64,000 bases of DNA. It comes from a virus. The notes beneath the pieces are model-generated. The model was not told the DNA's origin, made no database searches, and saw nothing but the letters and a program-made list of their open reading frames with translations. The translations under genes and the position numbers were made by a program. The stretch is from IMG/VR virus record IMGVR_UViG_3300044701_003160, positions 124,001 through 188,000 of that record, one strand, 5' to 3'. Below, in pieces: positions 11,692 to 54,300 of the stretch (position 1 is the stretch's first letter; each line of letters starts with the position of its first letter).

Positions 11692-14193
11692 TTATGTAAA
11701 AAATGATTCTAAACTAGTCGTTTTTTCTACGCTCCACCCAATTGCATCAAGAATTGATTTGAGTGGCTCTAGAAATGCTTTCTCAAATTGTAGGTCATAG
11801 TCTATGTATTTGTCAAGATTTAACTCCTTTGGAAATTCTTGAATAAAGGAGATAACATTTTCTTGAATTGTATTTGGTTTTTTTAGATAGATGAATTTAA
11901 TTTTTTCACCATTTTGTATGAGAGAATACTTATTTGTAAGGTTTGCATTTTTAATGAGATGATTAAACAAAAGTGCTCCCCGAACGTGAATTGGTGTTCC
12001 CTTTGAGTAAATTGTATTGGATGCTTTATATTTGTTTACGTCAGATGCAGAGCGTGGAAATGAAATCTGTTCTGGCGGGAGTTTCTTAAAATCCTTACGA
12101 GCATTCTCAATAAAGTCAATTACCTCATCTTCAGTCCCACTCATCATTAGTTTAAGAGCATCTTTAATCATCTTGCGGCAAGGAGCAGGAGTTGAAGATT
12201 TGACTGCCTCAATACCCATCATTTTCAGTTTAGGTTCTTCATAACGAACACCTTCACTATCCCAGACATTCAGAATATAACGCTTCTTAGCAGTCCAGAT
12301 TCCACGATCAGCAATATTCTCACGCTTCATCTGCATCTTCTGATCGTATGCATTCACATAGTCAGCCAGTTCTTGGTAGCAACTTTCAATATACTTTTCA
12401 AGTTCCACCTTACAGATCTTATCAAGGAACGAAACAACGCCTTCAGTAGTTTTTTCTCTTCCCTTGTATACAGTTTCAACCAAAGGACCCATATGAAGAT
12501 AAATGGAATCAGTATCAGAAGCAATAACATAATCAACATCCTCAGTTTTAAGAAGTTTATTTAGATAAGAATTCATCTTACTTTCAATCCAACGAATCGC
12601 AACCTGTCCCGAAAGAGTGATTGCCTCAGCATTCTCAAGTTTATAATATCTAAAATACTGATTTCCAATCGCGCCATAAGCAGAGTTCAAAGAAATCTTT
12701 TTTGCCATCTGAATATTATTACATCTAGCAATTTCTTTTTCTAACTCTTTAGACTTTTTCTTCTCATATTGCTTCTTTGCCTCAATCATTTTCTTTTTAA
12801 AAATGACTCGCTCATTATACATTTTATCCATCAGTTCTGGGAGAAATCCACGAACATCTTTACGATACATCGCTCCATTCGCACATACTGCATAATCACT
12901 ATACATTTCAAAAGTAAGATCTTGATTGAGAATTTTGTCTACAGTTACTGTTGGATGTTTTTCATCAATAAGAGTTTCTGGTGAAATATTATATCCCATA
13001 ATCAAGTGTGGATATAGACTGTTTAAGTCAAAATTGACGACATAATCATACTTACCCGGTTTTGGTTCCTTTACATAAGCACCAGCATACTTCTCATTTT
13101 TTTGAGATCTATTTCTGGGAGGAATTACAATATCTCTTTTTTTGAGATAGTTGTAGATAATATTGTCCCACATACGAACTTGATAGAACACGTCAGCATA
13201 ATTAACTTTGGCATCATAGGCCATCGTAAGTGCAAGTTCAATTAGTTTCATCTTGTCTTCCAAGCGGTCAACAAGTTCTACGTCAATAATGTTATATTCA
13301 ATAAACTTCTGCCAACCTTTAGTGTAAAAGTCTTTGAAGGTATCAAACTCGGAGTGGTCTAATTTTTTCTGACCCAGTTCAACCTCAGCAATATAATCAA
13401 GGCGATAAGATTCCTGTGCCTTATAAGTAAACTTCTTATAAAGATCCAAATAATCAAGTTGCGTTACACCACCAACATCAAAAGATGTATGCTTACGGCC
13501 GTTGATGAAAACCTCACCTTCAGTCACAAGTCCCCAAGGAGAAAGACGCTTCATTAACTTTTCACCAAGAACTCGATTGAGTCTTTTGGCAATATAAGGG
13601 ATGTCATAGAGTTGAATGTTCCACCCAGTAATTACATCAGGAACATCAACCATCCAATAATTAATAAAGTTGTTAAGGAGTTCGTATTCAGAAGGACAAT
13701 AATGATATGTTACATCTTTGCGTACATTGTTAAATGGTTTTACTCCCCAGGTAATAATCTTTTTAGTAGTATAATCTTGAATTGAAATAGAAAGAATTTC
13801 TTCAACGCAAGATTCTACATCGGGGAATCCTCCCTCCGATGCAACCTCAATATCTAGAGTTACAAGTTTAATTTTAGAAATATCAAATTTAATCTCATCT
13901 TCTGGATATTTTTCTGAAATGTATTGGTAGATATATCGATCATTTCCATAGATCTCAAACCCATCTACATTTTCATATTTTTTATAGAACTCACGACAAT
14001 CCCTAACAGTCCCTGGTCGAATAGGTTCTACAAATTCGTCAGTTAATGTTCTATACTTAGATTCTTTTTTAGTCTTTACAAAAAGAGTTGGAAAAAATTC
14101 ATCTCTATTTTCAAATCTTTTACCATTCTCAACACCACGAACTAAAAATTGATTACCAATCAACTGAACATTAGTATAGAAGCAATAATTCAT
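11692..14193 (-). CDS. 43: DNA polymerase, family B, T4 gp43-like
   Basis: Replicative polymerase of 833 residues, close to the usual cyanophage length and apparently unsplit. The proofreading exonuclease motif TLDIEVASEGG lies near residue 110 and WNIQLYDIPY near residue 190. Polymerase motif A DLNSLYPHLIMGYN lies near residue 389, motif B KKISLNSAYGAIGN near residue 495 and motif C ASDTDSIY near residue 558. The C-terminal PIP-like tail TTSLESFFT can bind the sliding clamp gp45. The ATG overlaps the stop of the Sm-like gene upstream as ATGA, so the two are coupled. Confidence 0.97.
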   Translation of the reverse strand: MNYCFYTNVQLIGNQFLVRGVENGKRFENRDEFFPTLFVKTKKESKYRTLTDEFVEPIRPGTVRDCREFYKKYENVDGFEIYGNDRYIYQYISEKYPEDEIKFDISKIKLVTLDIEVASEGGFPDVESCVEEILSISIQDYTTKKIITWGVKPFNNVRKDVTYHYCPSEYELLNNFINYWMVDVPDVITGWNIQLYDIPYIAKRLNRVLGEKLMKRLSPWGLVTEGEVFINGRKHTSFDVGGVTQLDYLDLYKKFTYKAQESYRLDYIAEVELGQKKLDHSEFDTFKDFYTKGWQKFIEYNIIDVELVDRLEDKMKLIELALTMAYDAKVNYADVFYQVRMWDNIIYNYLKKRDIVIPPRNRSQKNEKYAGAYVKEPKPGKYDYVVNFDLNSLYPHLIMGYNISPETLIDEKHPTVTVDKILNQDLTFEMYSDYAVCANGAMYRKDVRGFLPELMDKMYNERVIFKKKMIEAKKQYEKKKSKELEKEIARCNNIQMAKKISLNSAYGAIGNQYFRYYKLENAEAITLSGQVAIRWIESKMNSYLNKLLKTEDVDYVIASDTDSIYLHMGPLVETVYKGREKTTEGVVSFLDKICKVELEKYIESCYQELADYVNAYDQKMQMKRENIADRGIWTAKKRYILNVWDSEGVRYEEPKLKMMGIEAVKSSTPAPCRKMIKDALKLMMSGTEDEVIDFIENARKDFKKLPPEQISFPRSASDVNKYKASNTIYSKGTPIHVRGALLFNHLIKNANLTNKYSLIQNGEKIKFIYLKKPNTIQENVISFIQEFPKELNLDKYIDYDLQFEKAFLEPLKSILDAIGWSVEKTTSLESFFT

Positions 14194-26586: not shown

Positions 26587-27620
26587 TAGACAAGTTCACA
26601 AGCTTCCTGATAGATTTCTTGCATCATTTTTTGAATGATTGATTTATCAAGATTAATTTCTGCCTCCTCAATATATCTATTCAGTATAGAAATCGTGTCT
26701 TCACTTTCAAATGCTTCAAAATCTTGCGGTTCCTGAATATCGAAGTTTTCAATAACTTTTAATTCTGAAATATTTGACGAATAAAGTTTATCAATAAATT
26801 TTTCAAACTTTTTAGTATCAGTTTTTTTACGAACAACAACCTTTACAATTTTGTTTTCATACTCTCTCGTATCAAATGTTTGATGATCAGTATCCTCATA
26901 ATAGATGTTATAAAACATCTTATAGGGATTATTGATTGGAGTATGCTCTAGAGTTTCCGTATCAAAAATAGTGAAACCACGAGTATCATTTACATCCGTC
27001 CAGTAAATCTCATAAGGATTACCGAGATAGAACACAGTTCCATTATCAGAACGAGTGTGGTAATGACCAGAAAATACCTTTGTGAAGTTTGAAAAAAGAT
27101 TCGCTTCCAGTCCATGATCCATTACAATTGAACGATTTACTCTAAATCCTTGAAGTTCAAGATGTCCCATAGCAACTTTTGCTTTGGTCTTTTTAATCAT
27201 CTTAATAGTTTTTTCTTGATTATCTTGAGTAATCCAAGGAAGAAGAAGAACATTAAGATTTTCAACCTTAATTTCAGTAGGAGAAGAATAAGTTTGAATG
27301 TTTAGATAATCTTTTAATAAAAGTTGTGGGGAATTTGTATTGTTAGTATTTTTATAATAACTATCGTGATTTCCCACAATCATATGAACCTGATATTTGG
27401 AAAGAGGTTCAAATACAACTCTTTTAGCCCACTCTAAACTTTGATAGTCAATTGATTTACGACTATCAAAAGCATCTCCCATATGAATAACTGTTGTAAT
27501 CCCATACTGTTCCAGCGTTGGGAAGAACACGTTTTTATAGAAGAGTTCAAAGTAGTCGTGAAAAAGTTTAGAACCTTTTCTCGCCCCATAATGGGTATCC
27601 GTAAGAATTGCAACTTTCAT
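26586..27620 (-). CDS. 47: Recombination endonuclease subunit, T4 gp47-like (SbcD/Mre11)
   Basis: Metallophosphoesterase subunit of 344 residues. Motifs in order: DTHYGARKG (residue 8), HMGDAFDSRKS (near 46), VGNHDSYYK (near 83), MGHLELQG and SGHYHTRSDNG, supplying the Asp, His and Asn metal ligands of the Mre11 family. It pairs with gp46. The stop overlaps the DUF3110 start (TAATG), and its ATG follows the gp55 stop with no gap. This compact order is expressed from the sigma70 promoter upstream of gp55. Confidence 0.96.
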   Translation of the reverse strand: MKVAILTDTHYGARKGSKLFHDYFELFYKNVFFPTLEQYGITTVIHMGDAFDSRKSIDYQSLEWAKRVVFEPLSKYQVHMIVGNHDSYYKNTNNTNSPQLLLKDYLNIQTYSSPTEIKVENLNVLLLPWITQDNQEKTIKMIKKTKAKVAMGHLELQGFRVNRSIVMDHGLEANLFSNFTKVFSGHYHTRSDNGTVFYLGNPYEIYWTDVNDTRGFTIFDTETLEHTPINNPYKMFYNIYYEDTDHQTFDTREYENKIVKVVVRKKTDTKKFEKFIDKLYSSNISELKVIENFDIQEPQDFEAFESEDTISILNRYIEEAEINLDKSIIQKMMQEIYQEACELV

Positions 27621-28142
27621 TCAGTATCTTGTCTTACTGTAAATTCCGTCTTTAATGGAATTATAGTCGGAATAGTTCCCGCCGTCAATAGTGTTGTCGT
27701 CTGTAAATACTTCAGAATATCCAGAACGCTCAAGAATTTTGTTTTTAATTTCTAACTGACGCTTTTCTCTTTGAATACGACGAAGAAAAGCATAATGAAT
27801 AATTTGGGTGAAGTATGCAAAAGGATTTTGTGACTTCTCTGGATCAAAGTTATGAATATATTGAACTGAGTTTTCAATACCATCAGAAATCATATCTTCC
27901 TTAAACATATAATTTACAAAATTTGGTTTAAAAGAAAGATGATTTGCAATCTTTAAGAAACACTCTCCAATATAACGAGGAATGGGAGGTTTTGTGTCCC
28001 ATCGTGTTGCTCTATCAGCTTTTGTGGGTTCTCTACCAAACTTCTGAATAAAGGTAATTTCTACGTCTTCGCGATACTTGATAAGAGCAGCAAGAAAATC
28101 TTTATTGTTTACGTAGTGCTCTGACCTTTTTCTTTTGGCCAT
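27621..28142 (-). CDS. 55: Late-promoter sigma factor, T4 gp55-like
   Basis: Protein of 173 residues that directs host RNA polymerase to the NATAAATA late promoters found throughout this window. It has YVNNKDFLAALIKYREDV at the N-terminus, a sigma region 2-like helix pair (YMFKEDMISDGIENSVQYIH) and FDPEKSQNPFAYFTQIIHYA followed by FLRRIQREKRQLE. I use the ATG at 28140-28142 (MAKRKRSEHY), as in other cyanophages; a second ATG at 28158-28160 would add six residues. Neither has a clear ribosome binding site. A sigma70 promoter with an extended -10 lies 26-54 bases before the upstream ATG. Confidence 0.92.
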   Translation of the reverse strand: MAKRKRSEHYVNNKDFLAALIKYREDVEITFIQKFGREPTKADRATRWDTKPPIPRYIGECFLKIANHLSFKPNFVNYMFKEDMISDGIENSVQYIHNFDPEKSQNPFAYFTQIIHYAFLRRIQREKRQLEIKNKILERSGYSEVFTDDNTIDGGNYSDYNSIKDGIYSKTRY

Positions 28143-28185
28143 AACTGCTGTTGTTATCATAAGTTTTTATCATTATTATGTAGAT

Positions 28186-28214
28186 ATTATAACACTTCTG
28201 TAAATAGTTGACAA
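28186..28214 (-). promoter_or_regulatory. Sigma70 promoter for the gp55-gp47-gp46-VWA unit
   Basis: On the minus strand, TTGTCA (28209-28214), a 17-base spacer, then TATAAT (28186-28191) preceded by TGT. Its -35 shares bases 28209-28213 with a plus-strand promoter that faces the other way. Confidence 0.75.
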
Positions 28215-28236
28215 GGTATTTCAAACTGTGTATAAT
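28208..28236 (+). promoter_or_regulatory. Perfect consensus sigma70 promoter on the plus strand (antisense)
   Basis: On the plus strand, TTGACA (28208-28213), a 17-base spacer, then TATAAT (28231-28236): all 12 consensus bases with optimal spacing. Transcription would begin near 28243 and run antisense into the third Sm-like gene and uvsW. No plus-strand gene follows. Confidence 0.65.
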
Positions 28237-28264
28237 TACCTTTGTGAGGTTTGATAAATTAACT

Positions 28265-28657
28265 TTAGCTATTTTTATAAAGCTTCTCTAAGATCTCTTT
28301 AGCATCATTCACATTAGAAATATATCCCATTCTTCTATTAAGTTTTGCTTGGTTATCTTTTTCTTTACGTGATTGACGAAGATAAGACTGGTACATCATA
28401 ATCATTTCAATATCAGAAGATTCTGAAAGAGTTAATACGTCATCAATATTAAGTATAAACATATCATCAGTTGTGGTTTTAAGCCAGGGCTCTATTTTAT
28501 ATCCAACTAATCCAGTTCTATTTTTAATTTCAGAAACAACAATTGGATTTGAAATGATTAGCATCGTCTTATCTTCTTCTTCTGACGCAGCTAATTTACA
28601 AAAGATTTCTTCACCGGTTTTTAGTTTGACTGTTGCATAAAAATCATCTTCCATCAT
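28265..28657 (-). CDS. Sm-like (LSm) fold protein C
   Basis: Protein of 130 residues. It shares the small beta-barrel pattern of the two genes at 14190-14778: FYATVKLKTGEEIFCKL, DKTMLIISNPIVVSEI, VGYKIEPWLKTTTDDMFIL, then IDDVLTLSESSDIEMIMMYQ. The C-terminal helix is basic and longer than in the other two (RQSRKEKDNQAKLNRR). The start ATG ATG overlaps the UvsW stop. The gene faces the 3' end of the antisense promoter at 28208. Its place beside the helicase uvsW and late sigma gp55 suggests nucleic-acid-related function, but this is inference. Confidence 0.78.
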   Translation of the reverse strand: MMEDDFYATVKLKTGEEIFCKLAASEEEDKTMLIISNPIVVSEIKNRTGLVGYKIEPWLKTTTDDMFILNIDDVLTLSESSDIEMIMMYQSYLRQSRKEKDNQAKLNRRMGYISNVNDAKEILEKLYKNS

Positions 28658-30120
28658 TTGCTTTTAAGTTGTATTGTAATTATTTCATAATTAAAATTTT
28701 CTTCATTATAGATCTTAATACGTTCTATTAAGTGATTCAAGGTATAATTTTTTCTTGAGTTATAAGTGCAATCATCAGAAATATCATAAAGTACTGCTTT
28801 TGTTTTGTTTTTCCCTTTTCTTAAAACTCTTCCAATTGATTGGAGATTTCTGATTCTTGATTTACTAGGGGAAGCAAAGATAACATTATGTAGATTTCGG
28901 ATGTTAATGCCAGTAGAAAAAGTGCCGTAAGAGGCAACGATGATAGCATTATTTTCTTTTTCAGTAATTTCTCTAACCAATTCTCTTTCTTCAGTATCAA
29001 CACCACCGTGAATAAAAAATACTTTACGATCACCTCGCTTGTTAGTATTTATCTTCTCGTAAAGTATTGCTCCGTGTGTTTCTACACGACTGTAAAGAAC
29101 AAGAGTATTTCCTTTTAAATCTAAAGAAAGATTTGTAATAAATTTATTTCTTTGTTCGTGAGAAATTAAATATTGTATTTCATCCTCATAAGTCTCAAAT
29201 CTTTGGGGAGAATGCTTAAGTACAATACACTGAATATCTAACTGAGAAAGATGTCCTTGCTTCATCAGTTCATCAGTTTTTGTAACTTTATATGATGGGC
29301 CAAATAATCCCTCTAGAACCCACTTGTGTGTTTGAGTTCCATCAAGAGTTCCTGTAAATCCAAAACGATACTTTGCGTGATGAAGTTTGGTCATTATTTC
29401 AACAAGTGACTTGCTCTTAAATAAATGAGCTTCATCACCTATAATCACACTATATTCTTCAAAAAATGAACGTTCCAATTTATATACAGATTGCCAGGTA
29501 GTAATTGTAACTGGATGTTCGTTTGTCTTTTCTCTACCAGAATAAATTCGGTGACAATATGACTCAACATCCCAACCATAATCCTGAAAATCCTTATACA
29601 TCTGCTCTACTAGCGATGTCGTCGGAACAACTAAAAGAATTTTTTGCCCTTTATCTACAAAATATCTTACTATTGAATAAATCATCAGAGATTTGCCTGA
29701 GGCAGTTGGTGATATCAATAGTTTTCGGTTGTGTCGTAAAGCATCATATACTCCCTCAATTTGATATTGACGTGGAGAATGAGAGCATATAGATGCCATA
29801 TAGTCCTTTACACCTTCAAAAGATATACCCTCGTTTATCTCAAAGGGTAATCCATAGAATTTATTTTCTTTAAATTCATATGTGTAATTGTGAAGTTTTA
29901 ATTTATCAACAATCTTATCTAACAATCCAATATAAATTTCTCCAGTATGAGTACTGAGTAGTCTGATTTTTCCATCCCAGTGTCTGCTTCTATACTGGGA
30001 CATAAATTTTGCAGACTCTACTTCAAAAGTAAAGTATGGTTGAAGTTCGTGTAAAATATGTGGTTCGCAGTTTAATTTTAGGTGAACTTCATTTTTCTTT
30101 TCAATTACTACATCACTCAT
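28654..30120 (-). CDS. uvsW: RNA-DNA and DNA-DNA helicase UvsW
   Basis: SF2 helicase of 488 residues that unwinds R-loops and branched DNA, switching replication from origin to recombination mode in T4. Walker A SPTASGKSLM lies near residue 135, DEAH box IGDEAHLFKS near residue 228, motif III FTGTLDGT and motif VI QSIGRVLRKG. The N-terminal domain (residues 1-110) binds DNA in T4. The stop region overlaps the third Sm-like gene. A late motif AATAAATA lies 20 bases upstream, matching the late expression of uvsW in T4. Confidence 0.95.
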   Translation of the reverse strand: MSDVVIEKKNEVHLKLNCEPHILHELQPYFTFEVESAKFMSQYRSRHWDGKIRLLSTHTGEIYIGLLDKIVDKLKLHNYTYEFKENKFYGLPFEINEGISFEGVKDYMASICSHSPRQYQIEGVYDALRHNRKLLISPTASGKSLMIYSIVRYFVDKGQKILLVVPTTSLVEQMYKDFQDYGWDVESYCHRIYSGREKTNEHPVTITTWQSVYKLERSFFEEYSVIIGDEAHLFKSKSLVEIMTKLHHAKYRFGFTGTLDGTQTHKWVLEGLFGPSYKVTKTDELMKQGHLSQLDIQCIVLKHSPQRFETYEDEIQYLISHEQRNKFITNLSLDLKGNTLVLYSRVETHGAILYEKINTNKRGDRKVFFIHGGVDTEERELVREITEKENNAIIVASYGTFSTGINIRNLHNVIFASPSKSRIRNLQSIGRVLRKGKNKTKAVLYDISDDCTYNSRKNYTLNHLIERIKIYNEENFNYEIITIQLKSK

Positions 30121-47096: not shown

Positions 47097-47945
47097 TTAT
47101 CCGATCATATCATAAGGAGGAAGTTCATAAGTATTGGACATTTTTTCCATCAATATATCAATTTCTCTTTGTGCATCATCATACATTTGTCTTCCATTTA
47201 ATTCAACGCCACCAGGAAGTTTAACTCCCGTAAATTTCATCATATTTTGCCCCCACTGCTTTTTGATAAGAGAAGTTAGGTATGGTTTAATAAATGAATC
47301 ATTCCATACTCGGGAATAATCATTTGGGTCGAGGGTTGAATAACAATCAATTACAAAATATTGACTTGTTGTTACTGATCCCCAATCAATATCTAGATAT
47401 AATCTATCCTGCCTCTTATTAAATCTAATCTGCTTTTGGGTGTTTAAAAGAAAATCAAGATCCTCCAAATAAGTCTTAACCATCGCATAACTTAAGAGTT
47501 CTGTTGTTCCCCAATAGTAAATATCATTTAAAAATAACTGATATTTTACACTAAACATATTATGTGTAATAGTGTTGGCACCATCAAAAGTAAAGATTTT
47601 ATTTACACCAATAACATTTGGTGGAACTTGCAAATAATTGCTATTTTCTTCATAAGTAAAAGTTGTTGCAGTCCCTACAATATTAGTTGTAACCGTTGTC
47701 GATGCAATTCCAACAGCAGGAGAAGAACCTCCTCTAGCTCTTCCCCTATCAATATCTGCTTGAGTTACCTTATACTTATAAAAAGTTGGATATACTCCAT
47801 CAAAATGTCTTTCTTGAAAAAACTGAATAGCATCATCTACTAAATCTTCAATCTGTTCATCTGCAACATTAATTTCCAAAACTGGAGCTCCCAGTTTTCT
47901 CTTGCAATAATCAATAAGTTCTTGTCGAGTGGATGGTTGTGCCAT
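47097..47945 (-). CDS. 13: Neck protein, T4 gp13-like
   Basis: Protein of 282 residues (STRQELIDYCKRKLGAPVLE, DLVDDAIQFFQERHFDGVYP, LDPNDYSRVWNDSFIKPYLT and KKQWGQNMMKFTGVKLPGGV). Together with gp14 it seals the filled head and docks the tail. Length is near T4's 309. The ATG overlaps the upstream small gene as TAATG, so expression is coupled. Confidence 0.95.
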   Translation of the reverse strand: MAQPSTRQELIDYCKRKLGAPVLEINVADEQIEDLVDDAIQFFQERHFDGVYPTFYKYKVTQADIDRGRARGGSSPAVGIASTTVTTNIVGTATTFTYEENSNYLQVPPNVIGVNKIFTFDGANTITHNMFSVKYQLFLNDIYYWGTTELLSYAMVKTYLEDLDFLLNTQKQIRFNKRQDRLYLDIDWGSVTTSQYFVIDCYSTLDPNDYSRVWNDSFIKPYLTSLIKKQWGQNMMKFTGVKLPGGVELNGRQMYDDAQREIDILMEKMSNTYELPPYDMIG

Positions 47946-51300: not shown

Positions 51301-54300
51301 CAGACTTTTTACCAATTAAGGTCATATTTGGTGCTATCATTCCAAAAAATTGAGTTTCAGTAATACGTCCAAGAGATCTTGTATCTACATTTAAGAATGT
51401 AGAAGATTCTGTATAGGTTTCTGATATTAGTTGTTGTGTATATGGATTAAACTTAAAAACATCTAAAACTGGTTTCAGATTAGGATTTATTGGTAATACT
51501 TGACCAGTTGTAAAATCTACGATTGGAATTGGATTCACTACAAATCCTGGGTTTGAACCATCTGAAGGTCCAGATTTGTGGTTTGGTTTGCACAATTTAA
51601 ATGTTATTCTTTGTGCAGTAAAATGTGGATCAGTTTGTACGGTTTCGCCAATTTCAAACTTACCAGAAATCATTTCAATTTCTAATAGTTTTGGAATTAT
51701 ATAATTAGACATATCAATACCTTCAAAGAAAGGATAAAAACGAGTTAATGGTCTTAATCCTTTCGAATCAAATTCAATATTTCTACTTCTTAAATATTTT
51801 ATTTCCTCATCATAATGAGAAATGCTAGAAGTTTTTGTGTCGGAAGTTATAATTTGGGGTGGAACTACAATAGTTTTAATATTTGTAGTTGATGCTGTAG
51901 TAGTAGTAGTATTTGATCCTGTGATATTAGTTTCAGTACTAGTTCCACCAATATTAAACCTAAGAAGTGCTTCATAGTTGCCATTATTAGTTTCAATTGC
52001 AGTTATATATTGGTTTGCAACATCAGGTGGAACAAGTTGCCTAATTAAATCTTTATCTGCTTGATTTACTCTAGATTTTACTAAATTAAAGTAAATAAAA
52101 TTGTTTCCAATTACAGTTCCATCTCCAGATGCACTACTTCCAAATTTAACGACATCTCTTCCTGCTATATCTTTAATATCTTTTAAAATAACTCTTGCAT
52201 TAGCAATCCAATCAAATCCAGGAATTCCAGTCTGAATTACTGTTGGTTGGTTGTAAACACTTTTATTTTTAGTAACATTATTTACTACTGTGAAATTTTG
52301 GTCTTCTCTCTTTACGTTATTTTTAATTTCATTATAACTTGTAGTTTGTACTTTTTTTTCTTCCAACCAGGTATCAATTGGTGGGTTTAATTCTACAATT
52401 CCCTGCCAATATCTTACCAAAAATGGAGTTATACTTTCAGTTTTAGTTGCATAAGGTTGTTCAAAATATTGTCTTTCCACATAATCTAATGTAATCAAAT
52501 CTCCAGTTTTTCTGATATTTGGTGATCCCAAATCAGTAACATAACTTTGATCATCATTTGGGCTAAACGTTTCACCAATTCCTCTGATTATTTCAGACCC
52601 TAATTGCAAATCTATTGATGTTGTGTAATGCGTTGGTCTTAATGTATTAGTACTAGTGTCAATAGAGGATTTGAATATTGGATTTGATAATTGATGATAT
52701 TCGTGACTGCTAAAGTTATCGACAAAAAATCCACACTTAAATCTATCTAAACCTGTTTCTGCGTCCTTTATATTGAAATTTTCAGTTTTACTTTCTAACA
52801 TTGAAAGTGTAGTAAATTTTTCAACTCTTTCAATCCTGTCTTCAAGTAAAGAAATGTCGGACATTCGATATCTCTTATGTTTAGACATATCTACAGAAAC
52901 ATTTTTTACATCATAAACATATGGTGGAATAAGGATAGTTGCAATATCTAAAGAATTTGCTTTGAGTGCTGGCGGAAATGGAGATTCTGAAGGATTTCCT
53001 TGGACAACTTCAAAAGTACCATCATTATTTACAAAAACTCTGTCAATTCTACCAACATAGTATGAATATGATAGAATTAAATTTTCTCCTGGACATAGAG
53101 TATATTCTGAGTATTGACCATCAGAAGCAAAATTTCTTGCAGAAAATTCAAATGGAGACAGTGAGGAAGGTGTATAAGAGGCAACTCTAGGTCTTATATC
53201 AATATAATCAGTTAGTCTTGAATTTTCGTATAAACTTACATCATGTTTAAAATTAGCAGGATTATAACTATTTGCCGTAATAAATTCTCCAGTGTCTGAA
53301 GAATCGATTGTATAATTTTGAAATATAATCTTTATCTTTCTAGATGGTGGTTGAATATCGCCCTTTCTTATTATTCTAGAATAATCATAAAAAGTATCTC
53401 TTTGTCCATTATCAAATATAAAGTTTTGCGTGATATTGCTATCACCTAGTGTTTTTTCTGAAATGATTGCCTCTTCTGTTGATTGACTACCAACTACCAA
53501 TTCTCCAACTGAAAATTGTGTTGTATTTAGATAAACATAATCCAGATAATTAACACCGATTTTTCCAATTATAATTGCTACAGCACCAGAAGTTTTTCCT
53601 TCAATTTGCTCTCCTATCACAAAATTTTGATTATTATTTGCATTTCCAGAAATTCTTAATGATGGTACAGAAGGTTCTAAACTATTAGTTGACTCATAAA
53701 TGGCAAGAACTCTAACTACATCCGGAACATTTAAACTTATAATTTTATCTTGAACTCTAGTCCCATAGACATTATTATAAGTAAGTCCATCATTTAGAGT
53801 CGTAGTTCCTATTCCGGAATTAGTAAGAGATGAGTTTGATACAACTAAAGAAGAAACTTTATTAAACTTTTTAATCTTAGAACTTGGATTTATATTTCTT
53901 ACAGTAGCTATAACAATTGCATTTGTACCACTTTCTTTTGATAATCCATAAAAAGTTAATTCTTTTCCGCCATTAGGATCAATATTAAATTGATCTTGTC
54001 TTAGTGGTTCTATTGTGCCATCGGAATAAGTAATTACAAATCTGTCCTCATCAAAAGAATCGAAGAAAATATCTTTATCGCTAGGATCAATATTAATTGT
54101 TATTGAATTGTTACTAAAACTATTAACATTATATGAACGTCTTTGAATTATTTCATTTCCAATAAAATTGACTTCAGATACATTATTATGATTAAGTCGT
54201 GTTAATAGTGAAGAATTTCTAGATTCCGTTTCTAGTTCAATTTTTATGATATTTGAGACTTCAAAAGATCCAGAAGGTAATATTCCATTGCAAATACCAC

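Follow-up and report, generated by a model that had tools for sequence, protein, structure and literature searches.

In T4-like phages, the promoter of the late sigma factor gene gp55 has a back-to-back neighbor, a sigma70-type promoter that serves no gene and reads antisense into the genes upstream. It is probably genuine and regulated, i.e., a regulatory device rather than noise, and we rate it as real because of its conservation across relatives and not because of the single perfect match from which it was recognized. We analyzed a window of 64,000 nucleotides, the whole stretch of DNA from position 124001 to 188000 of a 219,018-bp virus record, which belongs to a T4-like cyanophage and carries on its minus strand, in order, uvsY, uvsW, an Sm-like gene, gp55, gp47, a DUF3110 gene, and gp46. 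The features that concern us lie between uvsW and gp55:

27621–28160, minus strand: gp55, late sigma factor (phrog_234, E = 2.6e-63; Pfam Sigma70_r2)
28186–28194, minus strand: extended −10 of the gp55 promoter, TGTTATAAT, with the TG at 28194–28193 and the hexamer at 28191–28186 (TGn in 141/148 relatives that share the −35)
28208–28213, plus strand: −35 of the antisense promoter, TTGACA, a consensus match (TTGACA in 265/275 distinct relatives)
28209–28214, minus strand: −35 of the gp55 promoter, TTGTCA, of which 28209–28213 are common to the antisense −35 (sharing in 148/268 relatives)
28231–28236, plus strand: −10 of the antisense promoter, TATAAT (TANAAT in relatives, with position 3 free; spacer of 17 in 253/275)
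28237–28252, plus strand: inverted repeat TACCTTTGTGAGGTTT, right after the antisense −10, with arms at 28238–28242 and 28246–28250 and the loop TGT
28265–28657, minus strand: Sm-like gene (Pfam PF16243, phrog_471), antisense to the plus-strand promoter
28654–30120, minus strand: uvsW helicase gene, farther downstream on the antisense side

Conservation of the antisense promoter at the uvsW/55 junction

On the plus strand of the window, the antisense promoter reads TTGACA-17-TATAAT (28208–28236) and matches the sigma70 consensus at 12 of 12 positions, with a spacing inside the usual 16–18. The gp55 promoter on the minus strand reads TTGTCA-17-TATAAT (28214–28186; 11/12) and adds the TG of an extended −10. 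The two −35 hexamers overlap by five bases (28209–28213), the −10s lie at 28186–28191 and 28231–28236, and the predicted starts are ~64 bp apart; a bidirectional promoter with a shared, symmetric −10 and starts within ~25 bp was not found at the junction. In all of this we recover the arrangement given in a preliminary description of this DNA, which had proposed two divergent sigma70 promoters, one of them a perfect antisense one, with a five-base −35 overlap, the minus-strand promoter reading gp55 and the plus-strand promoter running into the Sm-like gene and uvsW.

The same description had given the antisense promoter no gene of its own, and we likewise found no convincing plus-strand open reading frame (ORF) behind it in the window. 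Among distant relatives, no conserved ORF downstream of the promoter was common to the loci L334–L344; Sinorhizobium phage phiM19 has one, and its neighbor L333 a different one. With no conserved ORF, a hidden divergent gene was rejected. The ORF of phiM19 is an annotated one of 50 amino acids (L091 1649–1801, minus strand) that is absent in L334 and L335, and it is probably not a conserved gene, as L333 has a different ORF in that place. Transfer RNA or intron features were not found.

Taken alone, a perfect promoter within 64 kb of AT-rich DNA counts as weak evidence, since promoter-like sites of at least 9/12 are not enriched in the window (66, compared to 58.7 ± 7.8 in shuffles) and base composition leads one to expect ~0.15 perfect 12/12 sites with spacers of 16–18 per 64 kb, counting both strands. 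It is the comparative data that carry the case. Exact TTGACA-N16-18-TANAAT has 11 occurrences on the coding strand of the entire 219,018-bp genome, and the antisense promoter is the only one on the noncoding strand. A further site, TTGACG-17-TATAAT, lies inside the 3′ end of gp55 and points toward gp47 (27660–27688, minus strand, in the window; ~124197, plus strand, in Syn9); it may be an internal promoter, or merely the codons of a conserved protein motif.

For the comparison, we drew on 80 close gp55 loci from IMG/VR, 12 named isolates, and scans with divergent gp55 proteins, and scored 275 distinct regions between the Sm-like gene and gp55 at a cut-off of 10/12. The antisense promoter reached at least 10/12 in 272 of these 275 distinct gp55-upstream regions of T4-like phages, whereas the same cut-off was reached by 11/275 first-order Markov shuffles and by 0/275 on the antisense strand inside gp55. 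Conservation in related phages was one of the checks that the preliminary description had set for its reading, and both promoters are conserved by a wide margin. All 80 of the closest loci have TTGACA as the antisense −35 and TANAAT as the −10. Position 3 of the −10 is free to vary and changes 64 times over the gp55 tree; the remaining positions mostly stay the same. At the expected place after the −10, the predicted start is G or T in nearly all relatives. The promoter is also present in 12/12 isolates, which span many genera: S-SM2, P-TIM68, S-SKS1, P-SSM2, P-HM2, Syn1, S-SSM4, S-RIM2, Syn30, S-CRM01, Syn9, and phiM19. By our reading of its sequence, ME01 has a weaker version, TTAACA-18-TACACT. 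In each of 12 distant loci (L333–L344, which include several near duplicates), both hexamers are perfect and the spacer is 16 nt long. Only L200, L176, and L180 fell below 10/12, and the intergenic regions of L200 and L180 are short.

Some distant relatives that retain the antisense promoter are missing the Sm-like gene. As L339 lacks this gene and has uvsW directly upstream, the promoter tracks the uvsW/55 junction rather than the Sm-like gene. In T4, gene 55 and uvsW are not neighbors, and a search of the 1 kb upstream of gene 55 found nothing comparable to the antisense promoter with its repeat.

Overlap with the gp55 promoter

The two −35 elements start within 20 bp of each other in 261 of 268 scorable regions, and this geometry leaves no room for two polymerases at once. 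The −35 is shared in 148 of these regions, and the other 120 have a separate gp55 −35. The antisense promoter is still present in all 120; sharing is lineage-specific and not the essential feature. The mutual exclusion of polymerases through a shared −35, as originally proposed, thus stands as far as the geometry goes, but its dependence on sharing does not. In S-CRM01, the two promoters are ~170 bp apart; direct occlusion is therefore not universal, and control of gp55 in this phage would have to rest on interference instead.

Where the −35 is shared, its center base fits the antisense consensus (TTGACA) in 148/148 regions, and gp55 is left with TTGTCA. In counts that ignore relatedness, the gp55 −35 carries its consensus A at this disputed base in 101 of 120 nonsharing regions as opposed to 0 of 148 sharing ones, and an extended −10 accompanies gp55 in 141/148 sharing compared to 81/120 other regions. 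Parsimony on the gp55 tree gives 21 changes of the sharing state, with 6 independent contrasts on well-supported branches. Once relatedness was corrected for by paired tests on these 6 contrasts, which are too few, sharing was not significantly associated with either the gp55 −35 base or the extended −10. The sequences suggest a trade-off between the two promoters whose direction is clear and whose statistical independence is not.

The inverted repeat and its copies elsewhere in many genomes

An inverted repeat at the start of the antisense promoter and matching copies of it in the same genome had no place in the preliminary description. The predicted start at 28243–28244 (7–8 nt after the −10) lies inside the repeat, which extends from about −6 to +8 of the promoter and thereby places a dyad symmetry near the start, as in an operator. 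Across relatives, the repeat consists of 4–5 inverted bp around a short loop that usually contains TGT, and its position is fixed at 0–1 nt after the −10. The arms vary and their pairing is kept: AACCT/AGGTT, AACTC/GAGTT, AACTG/CAGTT, AACCG/CGGTT, and AACTT/AAGTT, as well as CAGGA/TCCTG in phiM19 and AGGC/GCCT and AGGG/CCCT in distant loci. Full examples of such double changes are AACTG-TGTAG-CAGTT, AACCG-TGTGG-CGGTT, AACTT-TGTCA-AAGTT, CAGGA-ATG-TCCTG, and AGGC-TTAT-GCCT.

Among 180 distinct 20-mers, perfect five-base-pair stems make up 19.4%, compared to 5.9 ± 1.5% after exchanging halves, and an unbiased column-pair analysis placed the stem pair d3-d12 (CG with GC) among its top three. In the same 20-mers, at least five pairs without mismatch were found in 61% when G.T was allowed on the antisense strand, compared to 20% when A.C was allowed there (i.e., G.T on the sense strand); a control that exchanged halves between sequences gave 46 ± 2.6%. 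By eye, the repeat also seemed to pair with the antisense −35 region (ACAAGGT with ACCTTTGT), but the unbiased column-pair analysis did not single this second pairing out.

Tolerance of G.T on one strand only is easier to reconcile with a single-stranded hairpin than with a plain operator in double-stranded DNA. An RNA hairpin in the sense mRNA is disfavored, as G.T is tolerated on the antisense and not the sense strand, and one in the antisense transcript is unlikely, as transcription is expected to start downstream of the 5′ arm. With the predicted start inside the repeat, part of the hairpin would be missing from the transcript, which leaves two forms for the repeat, an operator in double-stranded DNA or a structure formed by the displaced strand.

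The genome of the window holds a second copy, TTGACA-17-TATAAT-TACCTTTGTGGAGGTT, on the coding strand at C1:5596 (L357 5596, minus strand) and 53 nt before an ORF of 160 amino acids. This ORF has a weak match to phrog_12251, and a 151-amino acid ORF ahead of it has an HELWH motif and the look of a metallopeptidase. Copies that carry their own genome's repeat were found at this site in the window's genome (G000 C1:5596), in Syn9 at 52769 (before gp88), in S-SSM4 at 26765, in phiM19 at 158968, and in others. Among the 22 records searched, 20 have the promoter with its repeat and many hold one or two more besides that at the antisense promoter, so that the same site recurs at several promoters per genome in many genomes, as expected for an operator; the repeat class of Syn9 has two members only. 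For P-SSM2 and P-HM2, there was no second copy within 3 mismatches of the phage's own repeat. The genes behind the other copies differ and are mostly small: phrog_718 in several phages, cpeT in S-RIM2, other small ORFs, and in S-SKS1 a gene annotated as NAD synthetase and a helicase.

In a test on 11 genomes, with pairs compiled by hand, repeats matched within a genome with a score of 148 compared to 70.8 ± 13.3 in permutations (p ~0.0002), whereas the spacers of the same promoters showed no within-genome match (p = 0.06 with and 0.76 without phiM19 and Syn1). That the repeats match and the spacers do not argues against a simple recent duplication and in favor of one factor per genome. The antisense promoter and its copies would then probably form a set of two or three per genome under the control of one phage-encoded trans-acting factor, whose genome specificity we infer from the matching repeats. 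A prediction for Syn30 held: its phrog_718 promoter reads TTGACT...TATAAT followed by AACCTTGTAAGGGTT and had been missed earlier owing to the imperfect −35. P-HM2 has phrog_718 and lacks the repeat there.

The phrog_718 protein, 67 amino acids long and with a label that names no function, lies behind a repeat-bearing promoter in Syn9 (gp88), S-RIM2 (47231–47434), S-SSM4 (26824–27027), and Syn30 (12687–12884); its gene may be one of the early genes, or the protein may itself be the regulator. Another family, phrog_385, is labeled a transcriptional regulator and was present in 15/15 genomes searched (e.g., Syn9 175642–175866). Its sequence shows no sign of DNA binding, and the label may be wrong. 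The only Pfam match falls well short of the cut-off, and a comparison with solved structures gave no convincing relative, so it was dropped as a candidate regulator.

Possible modes of action

Our best explanation, which we advance tentatively, is that the antisense promoter (P-anti), back to back with the gp55 promoter, holds gp55 off until a trans factor acts. Early in infection, P-anti would capture host RNA polymerase, and with overlapping footprints a polymerase at P-anti would exclude another from the gp55 promoter, while polymerases departing from P-anti would oppose read-through from uvsY-uvsW. Binding of a phage factor to the repeat would silence P-anti and free gp55, upon which late transcription could begin. 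Promoter sequence, conservation, repeat, and matching within genomes are observed, whereas the effect of P-anti on gp55 and its timing are a hypothesis. A larger claim, which we regard as doubtful, would see in the locus an ancient cis-acting control over the late switch in phages of several host groups, in which a gene-less antisense promoter belongs, through its start-site dyad, to a tiny phage-specific regulon and a candidate phage regulator turns it off (or on) to time gp55.

Alternatively, the transcript itself might matter, as a cis-antisense RNA complementary to uvsW and the 3′ end of the Sm-like gene. Such an RNA would reduce the expression of these genes or stop read-through into gp55, with occlusion being incidental. 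The promoter is always oriented antisense to the upstream gene, and T4-like cyanophages offer a precedent in CfrI of S-PM2, an antisense RNA at psbA that has been shown experimentally (PMC2984593). CfrI differs in that it lies at psbA and a homing endonuclease, measures ~225 nt, and is known from expression (PMC2984593); here, antisense transcription at the uvsW/55 locus is predicted from promoter sequence, with far wider conservation. We found no mark of function in the body of the RNA: there was no excess of synonymous conservation in the Sm-like gene beside the antisense start, no convincing terminator after the promoter in the window, no unusual stability in folding (z-score +1.06), and no gathering-level Rfam match in the window (the best weak match reaching 20.1 bits against 48). 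A small RNA or known RNA family was rejected, as Rfam match, fold, and constraint are all missing, and the preliminary description's functional antisense RNA over uvsW finds no support as a sequence-specific RNA. What is conserved is the promoter and its start; lack of constraint, family, fold, and terminator in the RNA body leads us to favor a mechanism in which the promoter itself acts. An RNA that is perfectly complementary to its target requires no sequence constraint, and the missing synonymous constraint is thus compatible with a cis-antisense RNA. The target varies, however, as phages without the Sm-like gene have uvsW itself in this place, terminator and structural signals were not found, and an RNA alone does not explain the repeat and its matching copies. 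We consider this account unlikely.

The repeat might also act without any trans factor, by slowing escape so that a polymerase parked at P-anti keeps the gp55 promoter blocked, either for good or until conditions are different. Escape is often the limiting step at promoters of perfect consensus, and both the strand-specific tolerance of G.T and the fixed position of the repeat 0–1 nt after the −10 fit such a start-region structure, but it does not predict that repeat letters match within a genome, which leaves it quite unlikely. An R-loop replication origin as at T4, where the transcript stays hybridized and primes replication while the repeat folds on the displaced strand and shields the 5′ end of the RNA, could account for a consensus promoter without a gene, for a hairpin preference confined to the nontemplate strand, and for the purine-rich start of the transcript. 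Moreover, uvsW, whose T4 homolog unwinds R-loops, adjoins the promoter. We nevertheless deem an origin improbable, given that the other copies precede protein genes like ordinary promoters and that GC skew does not change sign at the site, a weak negative. T4 R-loop origins such as ori(uvsY) rely on a promoter transcript near uvsY/uvsW, and the likeness to them is a promoter near these genes in a T4-like phage; P-anti differs in position and orientation. That P-anti is a left-over of a lost divergent gene, or bidirectional noise from the near-palindromic −35, CTTGTCAAG, would agree with the annotated ORF downstream in phiM19. This ORF was not found in L334 or L335, and near-universal conservation over hundreds of phages, even where the −35 is not shared, excludes noise or a relic; we find the idea scarcely credible.

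Seen against known switches, the preferred reading of P-anti as a regulated block on gp55 resembles those of lambda (PR/PRM) and of the P2 and 186 types, in which promoters are mutually exclusive and a repressor site covers a start. The likeness lies in an excluding promoter pair and a putative operator over a start; here, in contrast, the repressor is putative, the phage is lytic and the gene shut out is that of its late sigma factor, and the opposing promoter makes no protein. In Syn9, host-like sigma70 promoters reportedly drive middle genes and a novel element serves early genes (Doron et al. 2016, ISME J). This early-gene element could overlap with the antisense repeat, although a repeat class of two members in Syn9 is smaller than a general early-gene element needs. 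Bidirectional promoters on Salmonella plasmids are said to have symmetry in the −10 region and both starts close together. At uvsW/55, overlap is confined to the −35s, ~64 bp separate the predicted starts, and of the two promoters the antisense one is better and more conserved. What the cases have in common is one DNA stretch with two divergent promoters, one of them antisense or gene-less; bidirectional sigma70 promoters are known in bacteria (PMC10268837). A search of openly licensed papers gave no description of the antisense promoter at uvsW/55.

T4-like cyanophages lack MotA, Asi, Alt, and Mod, and their early genes are believed to be transcribed by the unmodified polymerase of the host (PMC2984593). 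Because these T4 regulators are lacking, the timing of late transcription in this group is poorly known (PMC2984593). A nearly universal, gene-less promoter opposing that of the late sigma factor, with a dyad that recurs at one or two other promoters in many of the genomes, offers a testable entry point, as it predicts an antisense transcript, a regulator, and few targets, and it would be a rare case of an antisense promoter under strong purifying selection across hundreds of viral lineages.
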